Origin: a virus
Length of the DNA stretch: 64,000 nucleotides
Reading direction: 5' to 3' (one strand)
IMG/VR virus record: IMGVR_UViG_3300041586_000126
Coordinates: 1 to 64,000 of that record
In this document: piece after piece, positions 1,710 to 13,954 of the stretch
How positions within the stretch are numbered: the stretch's first letter is position 1
Layout: the number at the start of each line of letters is the position of its first letter
Notes under the pieces: model-generated
The model's input: the letters and a program-made list of their open reading frames with translations, nothing else
What the model was told of the DNA's origin: nothing
The model's database searches: none
Position numbers and translations under genes: made by a program

Positions 1710-1799
1710 CAATAAGGAAGAGCTAGAGAGTCCTAAATGATATCTAAAATCTCCTAGCAGTTTTTAAGATTGGTTTTTGCTTTAAAAAATCCTTCAAAT

Positions 1800-2619: not shown

Positions 2620-2852
2620 TATTAATTGTTGACGTTTATAGACGTTTTAATGGACGAGGGTTCGATTCCCTCCGGCTCCACTCTGGTAATTAAAAAACAA
2701 GGGGCCGCTTGGAATTGACGTTAGAAAAAGTAAATAAATTGAGATTAGTATTTATCGCAAACGGAAACTTTGCAATAGCAGCCTAGCAATAGGCTTTAAA
2801 TCCTTAAACAAGGTTTATAGATTTAACGTACCGCCTGAAACGTAATTCAGGC
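2620..2852 (+). ncRNA. ssrA: Circularly permuted (two-piece type) tmRNA
   Basis: tmRNA rescues stalled ribosomes and tags the nascent peptide. Here the acceptor half comes first: TGGACGAGGGTTC, T stem GAGGG/CCCTC, then CGGCTCC (2673-2679) and discriminator A 2680. After a 20-base linker (2681-2700) comes the 5' half, GGGGCCG (2701-2707), then TTGGAATTGACG, the D-loop analogue. GGGGCCG/CGGCTCC pair over 7 bp with a G3-U70 wobble, the alanine identity element. The tag frame runs from resume codon GCA 2757 to TAG 2786 and encodes ANGNFAIAA. The stop lies in a perfect AGCCTA/TAGGCT hairpin with a GCAA loop. A further stem GCCTGAA/TTCAGGC ends the coding half near 2852. Normal genes have the opposite order, so the precursor must be cut in the linker. 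End coordinates are approximate. Confidence 0.88.
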
Positions 2853-3751: not shown

Positions 3752-3961
3752 ATGAAAGAATATAAATTTAATGAGTCTGACACAAGATCAAATATTGATA
3801 AAATAAAATCAATTTTTTTTGATTATGCAGAAGGGATTAGTTATTTAGAGATTAAATTAGAAGATTTAGATATTATTGCTAAGAGAATTGAGATAGAAGT
3901 AATGAATATACAAGATGATAATGAATTTGTTGGATTGAAAGATTTAAATAAGAAACTTTAA
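3752..3961 (+). CDS. Hypothetical protein, 69 aa
   Basis: Acidic, helix-rich protein starting MKEYKF. No domain recognised. The first codons and the 20 bases before them (AAAAATAAAAGTTATG) match those of the next gene at 4034 and of 29669, so leader plus start region appear to have been duplicated together. It has its own promoter at 3698-3729. Confidence 0.75.
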   Translation: MKEYKFNESDTRSNIDKIKSIFFDYAEGISYLEIKLEDLDIIAKRIEIEVMNIQDDNEFVGLKDLNKKL

Positions 3962-3979
3962 AATTAATATACAACAAAT

Positions 3980-4011
3980 TAGACTACCTGAAGTATTGTT
4001 CGTATATTTAC
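3980..4011 (+). promoter_or_regulatory. Promoter for the repeat-protein gene at 4034
   Basis: -33 TAGA (3980-3983, weak), 19-nt spacer, -7 TATATTTAC (4003-4011). Confidence 0.7.
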
Positions 4012-4033
4012 ACCTAATAAAAAAATAAAAGTT

Positions 4034-4468
4034 ATGAAAGAATATAAAGTAGAAGTTACAAAAAATAGTACAGAATGGTACAACATGGAAGGTAAACGTC
4101 ATAGAGAAGATGGACCTGCTATAGAGTATAAAGGTGGAGATAAATTTTACTTCATTAATGGTAAACACCACCGAGAAGATGGACCTGCTATAGAGTATGT
4201 AAATGGAGATAAATGGTACTACATTAACGGTAAATATCACAGAGAAGATGGACCTGCTATAGAGTATGTAAATGGAAATAAATGGTACTACATTAACGGT
4301 AAACATCACAGAGAAGATGGACCTGCTGTAGAGTATTCAAGTGGAACTAAATCTTACTATATTAATGGTGAACTTTTAACTGAAAAAGAATTCAACAACA
4401 GAACCAAGCCATGTATAGATAAGGTGGTAGAGATTGACGGAGTAAAGTATAAACTATCTAAACTATAA
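4034..4468 (+). CDS. HREDGPA-repeat protein, 144 aa
   Basis: Four tandem 23-residue repeats (bases 4094-4369, 69 bases each) share the pattern HREDGPAIEY-x3-GxKxYYING. They resemble short beta-hairpin repeats such as MORN or YwqK-type repeats, and a beta-sheet stack is likely. The C-terminal cap ends in a GVKYKLSKL stretch that is nearly repeated in the paralogue at 29669-30034, which has three repeats. The gene has its own promoter. Function unknown; similar repeats occur in other phage and bacterial proteins. Confidence 0.8.
   Translation: MKEYKVEVTKNSTEWYNMEGKRHREDGPAIEYKGGDKFYFINGKHHREDGPAIEYVNGDKWYYINGKYHREDGPAIEYVNGNKWYYINGKHHREDGPAVEYSSGTKSYYINGELLTEKEFNNRTKPCIDKVVEIDGVKYKLSKL
4094..4369 (+). 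repeat. Four 69-base tandem coding repeats
   Basis: Units 4094-4162, 4163-4231, 4232-4300 and 4301-4369 encode the 23-residue repeats. The second and third units are closest to each other, suggesting recent copying. Confidence 0.9.
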
Positions 4469-10887: not shown

Positions 10888-12618
10888 ATGTACAAAAAAG
10901 CATACGCAACTAGAATAAAAAACAATAAATATAAAATTTATTTGTGGGACCAAGGAGGGTATAATGAAATTGAGTGGACAAACTGTGCTTATGTAGAATG
11001 CAAAAGTAATCAATTTACTCATAGAGGAATTAATGATGAATATTTACTTAAAACTCCTAACTGGTATAAAACAGACCCCCATTTACATTTCCATGATATG
11101 CCTCCTTATCAAAAGTTTCTTATTGAGAAATATGGAGCAGATGATACTCCCTCTACAGGACATAGAGAATTATTTTTTGATATTGAGTGTGAAATAGGAG
11201 GAGCACTTACCGAAGAATATATTGAAACAGCTCCCATGCCCATCACCTCAATCGCTTATTGGGATAAAACACCTGATAAATGGGTCATTTTAATATTAGA
11301 TAAAAAAAACGAATTACTACCTAAAGAGATTAATGGTAAGGAAATTATACCTGTAAGGACTGAAAGAGATTTACTGTTAAAGTTTATAGAACATTTTACA
11401 AACATTAGCCCAGATATCTTAGTTGGATATAATAGTGATTTCTTTGACATCCCCTACTTATATTATAGGATATGTAATGTTCTAGGGAGAGAATACGCTG
11501 ACTACCTTTCCCCTATTAATAAAGTAAATGCTAAAAAAGATAACCCCTACTTTCACAAACCAAACCAGTATGTAGATATTGTGGGTGTAGAATCTTTAGA
11601 TTATATCCGTTTACATAAAAAATACCATTGGAAAGATGAACCAAGTTGGAAATTAGATGCTATTGGTTTAAAATACGCTAATTTAGGAAAGGTTGAATAT
11701 CAAGGAAATTTGGACCATTTATTTTCTACTGACTTAAATAAATTTATTGAATACAACTTTCGTGACGTTGAAATATTACAAAAGTTAGATGAAAAATTAC
11801 AATATATTGCTTTAACTAAAAATTTATCTCATAAAGGTAAACATAATTATAGTGAAGTATATGCTAATAGCAAAACACAGGATGGTGCTATTTCAGCCTA
11901 TTTATTATCTCAAAATATAATACCACCACCTAAGGAACGGAACCCTCAAAAGAAGGAAACTTATGCAGGTGGGTATTTGTTTTGTCCTAAAGCGGGGTTA
12001 TACAAATATATGTTTGATGAAGATTTAGTATCACTATATCCTTCAATAATAATGACGTTAAACATAGGTAAAGAAACTTTTATAGGTCGTATTATAGATG
12101 AAGATGATCGTAATAATAGATTAGGTCTTAATGATTTAAGATTAAAAGACCCTAAAGAAGAATTATTAGTAGAAAATGGTAGACAACAAAGAACAGTAGT
12201 TCCTGTTAGTAAATTAATCAAAATAATAGAAACCGAAAAATTATCAATATCTGCTAATGGTTCAATGTTTAGAACAGACAAAGAATCTGTATTATCAACT
12301 ATCCTAAAGAAATGGTTCGAAGAAAGAGTTACATATAAAAAAAGGATGCAAAAAGCATATAAGGTAGGAAATAAGGAAGATGGGGATCATTGGCATAGGA
12401 TGCAATATACTATGAAAATTCTCTTAAATTCACTCTATGGCGCAACCGCTCTTCCTTCTTTCCGTTATTCTATGAATTTCCAAATACTAAGTGAAGCCAT
12501 AACCCTTTCTGGGCATAGAATTATACAAGAAAGTGCCCTATGTGTCAACAAACATATAAACAAAATTGTGAGAAGTGAAGAATTAACTGAGGAATTCAAA
12601 AAATCCCTTAATATATAA
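10888..12618 (+). CDS. Family B DNA polymerase, N-terminal part (gp43-like), 576 aa
   Basis: Replicative polymerase with proofreading exonuclease. Exo I is DIE at 98-100, Exo II NSDFFD at 182-187, Exo III D293 (FRDVEIL). Polymerase motif A is DLVSLYPSI (379-387) and motif B KILLNSLYG (510-518). The frame stops about 58 residues after motif B, before motif C, which lies at 13085-13100 in other frames. T4 gp43 is about 900 aa; this part plus the downstream pieces adds up to about 890. Splitting of gene 43 into 43A and 43B between motifs B and C is known in some Aeromonas T4-type phages. Confidence 0.92.
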   Translation: MYKKAYATRIKNNKYKIYLWDQGGYNEIEWTNCAYVECKSNQFTHRGINDEYLLKTPNWYKTDPHLHFHDMPPYQKFLIEKYGADDTPSTGHRELFFDIECEIGGALTEEYIETAPMPITSIAYWDKTPDKWVILILDKKNELLPKEINGKEIIPVRTERDLLLKFIEHFTNISPDILVGYNSDFFDIPYLYYRICNVLGREYADYLSPINKVNAKKDNPYFHKPNQYVDIVGVESLDYIRLHKKYHWKDEPSWKLDAIGLKYANLGKVEYQGNLDHLFSTDLNKFIEYNFRDVEILQKLDEKLQYIALTKNLSHKGKHNYSEVYANSKTQDGAISAYLLSQNIIPPPKERNPQKKETYAGGYLFCPKAGLYKYMFDEDLVSLYPSIIMTLNIGKETFIGRIIDEDDRNNRLGLNDLRLKDPKEELLVENGRQQRTVVPVSKLIKIIETEKLSISANGSMFRTDKESVLSTILKKWFEERVTYKKRMQKAYKVGNKEDGDHWHRMQYTMKILLNSLYGATALPSFRYSMNFQILSEAITLSGHRIIQESALCVNKHINKIVRSEELTEEFKKSLNI

Positions 12619-13013: not shown

Positions 13014-13091
13014 ATGAAATTCTTACAAGAAGTTCCAGAATACATATGTCCGAGTACTGACGTTAACCACGTCGCGTACTCGGACACGTGA
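13014..13091 (+). CDS. DNA polymerase linker piece up to DT of motif C, 25 aa
   Basis: ATG 13014, preceded by an A-rich leader like those of real genes here, reads MKFLQEVPEYICPSTDVN and then HVAYSDT before TGA 13089-13091. Appending the next frame from its Asp (DSIYIH) would restore YSDTDSIY, the catalytic motif C of family B polymerases. Five extra bases around 13086-13092 break it. The stop TGA overlaps the GTG start of the next frame (GTGA). Confidence 0.6.
   Translation: MKFLQEVPEYICPSTDVNHVAYSDT
13047..13086 (+). promoter_or_regulatory. Strong stem-loop directly before motif C
   Basis: TGTCCGAGTAC (13047-13057) and GTACTCGGACA (13076-13086) are perfect 11-base arms. An inner GACG/CGTC pair leaves a 7-base loop. 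It lies inside coding sequence and ends one base before the GTG at 13088. Confidence 0.7.
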
Positions 13092-13954
13092 CAGACTCAA
13101 TCTATATACATGCTGAGCCCCTACTGTTAAAGTTATACCCCAATTTTGAGGAATTTACTGATAAAGAAAAGGATAATATTCTAGAAAAAGTAGCCCTAAA
13201 ATATCAAGAAGTAATTAATAATGATTATGGTAGAATAACATGTGATGTTTTTAACGTGAAGGATCATAGATTAGAGATGAAAACTGAAGCTGTTATTCGT
13301 ACTGCTTATTTTAGAGCTACTAGAAGATATGCCCAGTGGATTACAAAACAGGAAGGAATAGAAAAAGAAATATTGGATATTAAGGGATTAGAATTTATGA
13401 AAGCTAATTTTCCTCCAATATTAGGGAAATTCTTCAATAGTATTCTTGAACAAGTATTAAAAGGGGAAAAAAAAGATAATATTATAGAACAAATTAAAGT
13501 GTTTAAAAAACAAATAATTGATGGGGAAATCCCTCTTACTAAACTAGGAAATCCTACATCTGTTAAAAAGTTGAGTAAATATAGTGGAACAAATGCAAGA
13601 GCAGGGGAAATGTTCACCGAAATATTAAAAGGAGCCCCAGCTCCTGTAAAGGCCGCTATCCGATATAATGATTTATTAAAATTGTGGCAGTTAGATAAAA
13701 AGCATGACTTAATAACTCAATCGGATAAAGTAAAATGGATATACTTAAGAGATAATCCCTATAAAATAGAATCACTAGCATTTCAAGACCATGATATACC
13801 CGAAAAAATACAAGAATTTTTAAATAAGTATGCTAACCGTAGAATAGTATTTGAGACTATATTACTAAATAAATTAGAAGGGTTTTTTGGGGATCTTGAA
13901 TGGTCTCTTGATTTGAATCCCTATTTAAACAATTTTTCTTTCTTTGAAATTTAA
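13088..13954 (+). CDS. Family B DNA polymerase, C-terminal part (palm end and thumb), 288 aa
   Basis: From GTG 13088 the frame reads V-TDSIYIHAEPLL, the second half of motif C, then a KxY-like region (RRYAQWITK) and the thumb, with no further frameshift to TAA. The first catalytic Asp of DTDS is missing if translation begins at GTG. The piece at 13014-13091 carries it in another frame. Whether the cell uses coupled initiation, a recoding event or a spliced message, or whether this is a sequence error, cannot be decided here. Confidence 0.85.
   Translation: MTDSIYIHAEPLLLKLYPNFEEFTDKEKDNILEKVALKYQEVINNDYGRITCDVFNVKDHRLEMKTEAVIRTAYFRATRRYAQWITKQEGIEKEILDIKGLEFMKANFPPILGKFFNSILEQVLKGEKKDNIIEQIKVFKKQIIDGEIPLTKLGNPTSVKKLSKYSGTNARAGEMFTEILKGAPAPVKAAIRYNDLLKLWQLDKKHDLITQSDKVKWIYLRDNPYKIESLAFQDHDIPEKIQEFLNKYANRRIVFETILLNKLEGFFGDLEWSLDLNPYLNNFSFFEI

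Follow-up and report, generated by a model that had tools for sequence, protein, structure and literature searches.

The window analysed here comprises the first 64,000 nucleotides of the IMG/VR virus record IMGVR_UViG_3300041586_000126, an 87 kb fragment. The window contains 17 tRNAs, and in the tRNA array, between called genes for tRNA-Cys directly upstream (2544-2616) and tRNA-Arg(tct) directly downstream (2857-2930), lies a tmRNA gene in which the 3' tRNA-like half precedes the 5' half. The gene, its parts and the neighbouring elements of the block are on the plus strand. The tRNA-Cys was called with the anticodon ACA; the usual one is GCA. The Rfam family RF04321 (tmRNA_permuted) matches positions 2634-2786 with 58.5 bits against a cut-off of 47 (E 8.8e-9 in the 64 kb window); the match covers 153 nt, against a model of 213 positions. 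Every part named in an initial annotation of this DNA is present between 2634 and 2852, in the permuted order that the annotation had proposed.

The acceptor piece, i.e. the 3' tRNA-like half, covers 2634-2680. Its first position is the start of the model match, and the 5' end of the piece is placed beyond the end of tRNA-Cys at 2616. The alignment to the Rfam model identifies the T arm GAGGG-TTCGATT-CCCTC (2656-2672, stem 2656-2660/2668-2672), which is followed by the 3' strand of the acceptor helix, CGGCTCC (2673-2679), and by the discriminator A at 2680. The CCA end is not encoded; the next letters are CTC. A linker of exactly 20 nt (2681-2700), the length given initially, separates this piece from the coding piece and is presumably cut from the precursor. 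The coding piece (2701-2852, the 3' boundary being predicted from a pseudoknot) contains the 5' tRNA-like half and the mRNA-like domain. It begins with the 5' strand of the acceptor helix, GGGGCCG (2701-2707), which pairs with 2673-2679 in seven of seven positions; the alanine-type G-U pair that had been noted in this helix is found as G3-U70. The element TGG..TTGAC is located at 2710-2719. A helix P2 of 6 bp with one bulge can be read from the sequence between TTTTAA in the acceptor piece (2645-2650) and TTA-G-AAA at 2721-2727; it is weak and consists entirely of A-T pairs. The tag frame (2757-2786) encodes ANGNFAIAA, with the AIAA end that the initial annotation had described. It runs from the resume codon GCA (2757-2759), which specifies alanine, through a hydrophobic AA end to the stop codon TAG (2784-2786; GCA ... 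ATA GCA GCC TAG).

The other covariance models stayed below their cut-offs at this locus, with 18.8 vs 50 bits for alpha_tmRNA (RF01849) and 37.9 vs 70 bits for cyano_tmRNA (RF01851). In the 87 kb record as a whole, no standard-order tmRNA scored above cut-off; the best match to RF00023 (25 vs 47 bits) overlaps the permuted locus itself, and a standard 3' half downstream of 2786, which would speak against a permuted gene, is absent. The check by tmRNA search programs that the initial annotation had suggested gave a divided answer: RF04321 is above its cut-off, but ARAGORN 1.2.41 called no tmRNA here with any of eight option sets. Since ARAGORN misses this gene, annotation tools overlook such genes. 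The missing call, together with the fact that T arms are common within tRNA arrays, could suggest that two fragments of a broken tRNA, or chance likenesses, mimic the halves of a tmRNA. We regard this explanation as extremely improbable in view of the E value of the Rfam match over 64 kb, of the tag frame, and of downstream structures that are common to relatives. A combined pattern of T arm, acceptor strand, linker, acceptor strand and TGG..GAC, drawn up with the window sequence in view, occurred once in the window and in none of 100 dinucleotide shuffles.

The tag had been described as ending before a hairpin stop. A hairpin is present at this position (AGCCTA-GCAA-TAGGCT, 2780-2795), as predicted by folding; it is the stop-codon hairpin of the tmRNA itself, followed by a pseudoknot up to 2852, and not a terminator. 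In the interval between the two, the computed fold suggests an additional A-T-rich hairpin (2796-2826). The predicted H-type pseudoknot (2826-2852) consists of stem S1, ACGT 2826-2829 with ACGT 2840-2843, and stem S2, GCCTGAA 2833-2839 with TTCAGGC 2846-2852, and ends 4 nt upstream of tRNA-Arg. The stop-codon hairpin and the pseudoknot are predicted to mark the end of the gene. Both structures recur at the corresponding position, in different letters, in about 15 compact permuted tmRNAs that were retrieved from IMG/VR by pattern. Across 17 phage sequences, pairing is kept in 119 of 119 cells of the acceptor helix, with several types of pair, in 71 of 75 cells of the covarying stop hairpin and in 82 of 85 cells of S2, the latter two beating all 2000 shuffles. 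The signal for S1 (67 of 68, P 0.043) is weaker. The helix arms were picked by eye, which biases these counts in favour of the structure. Taken by itself, the window sequence gives modest signals: its best pseudoknot score was equalled in 5 of 300 shuffles and its stop hairpin in 28 of 2000, and the fold z is only -1.9. The mRNA-like part of the gene is short. No pseudoknot PK1 was identified upstream of the resume codon (2728-2756), nor is one present in a fold of 2701-2852 by a program that is blind to pseudoknots.

The tmRNA gene is part of a variable block (1795-2856), which also contains tRNA-Arg(acg), an HNH endonuclease gene (1846-2535; phrog_10822, E 8e-25, with HNH_3 below the Pfam cut-off) and the tRNA-Cys gene. 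A sister contig, L125, is about 97% identical to the window over 7 kb and is devoid of this block of ca. 1.06 kb, including the tmRNA. The motif CAAAT occurs at both ends of the block in the window (1795-1799 and 2852-2856) and as a single copy in L125. The absence from a sister phage indicates that the tmRNA gene is dispensable. In two other relatives (L131 and L133) tRNA-Arg(acg) adjoins tRNA-Arg(tct) with nothing in between; since these phages have tRNA-Arg(acg) without the HNH, Cys and tmRNA genes, the difference from L125 can be a gain or a loss alike. A permuted gene was found in none of the 46 relatives' records searched, which are mostly fragments. A phage of the same polymerase lineage (L156) carries a one-piece tmRNA at 1857-2236, the tag of which, GEEKSSFTFEDALAFVGADYAVAA, is unusually long with 24 residues. 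Elsewhere in the tRNA array, window positions 3960-4400 contain internal repeats, which show up as multiple matches to L125 at different offsets.

The gene content of the record is T4-like, with a family B DNA polymerase (PolB, two ORFs), a clamp loader and baseplate J; GroEL, QueD and QueE are also encoded. The polymerase is split into an N part (10888-12618) and a C part (13088-13954) with an 87-aa frame between them, and matches to the first part end near residue 564 in most relatives as well. At least 253 IMG/VR relatives have this polymerase in common. A PolB search of GTDB found relatives on only 3 contigs; two are labelled as Flavobacteriaceae MAGs, of which one is of North Sea origin, and the third has no lineage label. 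The best match of the GroEL protein is to Flavobacterium phage immuto, with 59% identity. The order QueD-QueE-phosphoribosyltransferase-GroEL-PD-(D/E)XK nuclease-glycosyltransferases is the same in the two phages. The MAG bins, GroEL and the gene order are good but indirect evidence that the host belongs to the Flavobacteriaceae. Profile, gene-content, GroEL, MAG and gene-order tests all support the initial view of a permuted, phage-borne gene in a tRNA array with a Bacteroidota host. Shine-Dalgarno-like sites are not enriched in the window phage, and likewise not in immuto. We considered this as a mark of Bacteroidota; cyanophage-like contigs, however, lack such sites too and the L025 phage has them, which leaves it as weak support only.

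In agreement with the initial annotation, hosts of this group normally have one-piece genes: a standard tmRNA is present in 56 of 60 Flavobacteriaceae genomes. A one-piece tmRNA with the tag GENNYALAA is also found in the MAG (G047) that contains a relative of the window phage. A permuted gene above cut-off was found in one of 399 Flavobacteriaceae genomes (G283), by a large-genome search that scores few candidates per genome and can miss some. The surroundings of this gene are phage-like, with tRNAs and genes for DNA polymerase A and a DnaB-type helicase, and the standard tmRNA of the same genome (160 bits) is on a different contig. The permuted gene (L243, G283:C1:986035-986308) has the tag GKVIQMNNAPVRLAA. 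Bacteroidota genomes also gave weak matches to RF04321 (28-39 bits). These were discarded as candidates; all 12 that were rescanned coincide with ordinary one-piece tmRNA genes.

Known tmRNA biology suggests how the phage gene would work, and from it we infer processing, CCA addition, alanylation, use of SmpB and proteolysis. The tRNA array would be transcribed through the tmRNA gene. RNase P and host 3' processing would then release two pieces, with a 3' end at 2680 and a 5' end at 2701, the outer ends being set by the flanking tRNA-Cys and tRNA-Arg. A host nucleotidyltransferase would add CCA, and the host AlaRS would charge the molecule through G3-U70. No smpB gene was found in the 87 kb record, so that host SmpB would be needed for loading on stalled ribosomes, where ANGNFAIAA would be added for host proteases. 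In this way the phage may maintain or boost ribosome rescue in the infected cell, at a time when the transcripts of the host are broken and its tRNA supply is remade. A different function would follow if the gene were a decaying or decoy copy, which is weakly expressed or unprocessed or which mainly titrates host SmpB instead of tagging. The gene is indeed sporadic in its lineage, and a form in phage DS6A with the tRNA-like domain only inhibits the host tmRNA (PMC4131195, PMC11915505). However, the tag frame, stop codon, pseudoknot and other testable parts of the window gene are intact and pairing is kept in spite of sequence change, which makes decay or a decoy role improbable.

A phage-borne permuted form, as described in the initial annotation, is not new in itself: a two-piece tmRNA has been published for the methylophage Melnitz, together with 53 two-piece candidates among 18,146 phage genomes (PMC9004378). 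A tmRNA database from 2025 lists 79 phage tmRNA sequences (PMC11915505), and at least 120 stretches matched in our pattern scan of IMG/VR for permuted tmRNA. Openly searchable papers yielded no account of a permuted tmRNA in Bacteroidota phages. What looks new here is the host group and not the phage-borne permuted tmRNA as such. The window gene has the half order, acceptor pairing, G3-U70, T arm and tag frame in common with the RF04321 family of alpha- and betaproteobacteria and cyanobacteria; it differs from this family in being shorter, in its 2-nt spacer and TTGAC, and in a host group with one-piece tmRNA. Melnitz, a Methylophilales phage, is like the window phage a T4-like marine phage with a permuted tmRNA. 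Its tmRNA, however, is of the alphaproteobacterial type (113 bits), with a spacer of about 4 nt, AGGTTCGAC and a GGGGG..CAGTACCC T arm, whereas the window gene is of the flavobacterial type.

Permuted tmRNAs are also present in Chryseobacterium phage MA9V-3 and in crAss-like phages from three Suoliviridae subfamilies (including cr53_1, cr60_1, cr114_1, cr125_1, cr10_1 and cr50_1). Several of these genes pass the RF04321 cut-off; others are below it, yet ARAGORN calls them permuted (tmRNA*). Several are annotated as plain tmRNA, and the papers we found do not comment on their form. Like the window gene, they are permuted genes of Bacteroidota phages, and most of those parsed have a 2-nt spacer; the crAss-like genes also share TTGAC, and several have a similar ACGGC/GTCGT pseudoknot. 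They differ from the window gene in having longer tags that begin with G and linkers of about 70 to more than 600 nt. These linkers can hold a tRNA-His gene (cr114_1, L274 571-643) or an endonuclease gene (cr56_1, L281 518-1099), which fits the idea that the linker is cut out. RAGATH-9 or RAGATH-20 RNAs (Rfam) are located upstream of Suoliviridae permuted tmRNAs at L003 341-513, L273 159-260, L274 47-214, L275 42-144, L276 314-482, L279 155-334 and L281 187-284. The compact permuted tmRNAs of marine phages in IMG/VR (L025, L018, L107, L112 and others) resemble the window gene in their short mRNA-like part, stop-codon hairpin and 3' pseudoknot; they differ in their GEQVEMAMAA-type tags, and at least one of these phages uses Shine-Dalgarno sites.

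The closest resemblance of the tRNA-like part is to Flavobacteriaceae one-piece tmRNA. The gene of MAG G047 has an almost identical 3' half and spacer and a 9-aa tag of similar pattern, but differs in its standard gene order and its length of about 400 nt. All 21 parsed Flavobacteriaceae one-piece genes (11 were unparsed) have 2 bases between the acceptor strand and TGG and a T before GAC; in other Bacteroidota one-piece genes there are 3-4 bases and a C (TCGAC) in 12 of 12. The window gene has the Flavobacteriaceae state (2-nt spacer, TTGAC), and its 3' half, GGACGAGGGTTCGATTCCCTCCGGCTCCA, is one base off several Flavobacteriaceae one-piece genes. The core identity of the window gene is 0.89 to the best of 21 Flavobacteriaceae one-piece sequences, and 0.75, 0.71 and 0.61 to single consensus sequences for the beta, cyano and alpha forms respectively. 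In a tree built from 63 columns, the nearest rows to the window by path are again Flavobacteriaceae one-piece genes. Because of this similarity the permutation probably arose separately from those in alphaproteobacteria, betaproteobacteria and cyanobacteria. We consider a separate origin likely on the basis of these sequence comparisons, although the 63-column tree cannot prove it.

Alternatively, the phage could have acquired the gene in permuted form from alphaproteobacteria, betaproteobacteria or cyanobacteria, either directly or via other phages, and its tRNA-like part could later have become host-like by selection or recombination. Permuted forms are abundant among marine phages, and the use of Shine-Dalgarno sites by the related phage G449 (L025), the carrier of a close permuted gene, suggests that its host may be a different one. 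An AU test on the 63 columns did not reject a single clade of all permuted genes (p 0.19). On the other hand, no tree in 200 bootstrap replicates of these columns united the permuted genes, a grouping of the window with the cyano/alpha-like permuted genes was rejected (p 0.014, AU test with groups named after seeing the data), and the alpha and cyano Rfam scores are far below cut-off. Together, these results make import a possible but unlikely origin. The spacer and the T arm speak against one specific version, in which the gene would have come from SAR11-like phages, as in Melnitz.

We return to a separate origin as the preferred explanation. We are fairly confident that the record comes from a T4-like Flavobacteriaceae phage with an intact circularly permuted tmRNA gene (ssrA) in its tRNA array, that the product of this gene would be processed and used in ribosome rescue with host enzymes, and that the permutation is probably separate. 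The chances appear about balanced for a more far-reaching scenario, in which a one-piece gene of the Flavobacteriaceae type gave rise, in Bacteroidota phages, to a fourth independent permuted lineage. This lineage would then have spread through T4-like phages, perhaps also crAss-like ones, and prophages, with the hosts staying one-piece.

Separate origins are assumed for the permuted tmRNAs of the three bacterial groups known to have them, and from this convergence an advantage of the two-piece form has been argued (discussed in PMC3978253). The cultured Chryseobacterium phage MA9V-3, with its permuted gene, is open to direct RNA work. If the scenario is true, a fourth case would be held by phages, whose sister phages have a one-piece gene (L156) or none (L125), and the two-piece advantage would become testable in close relatives and within a single host cell that makes both forms of tmRNA.
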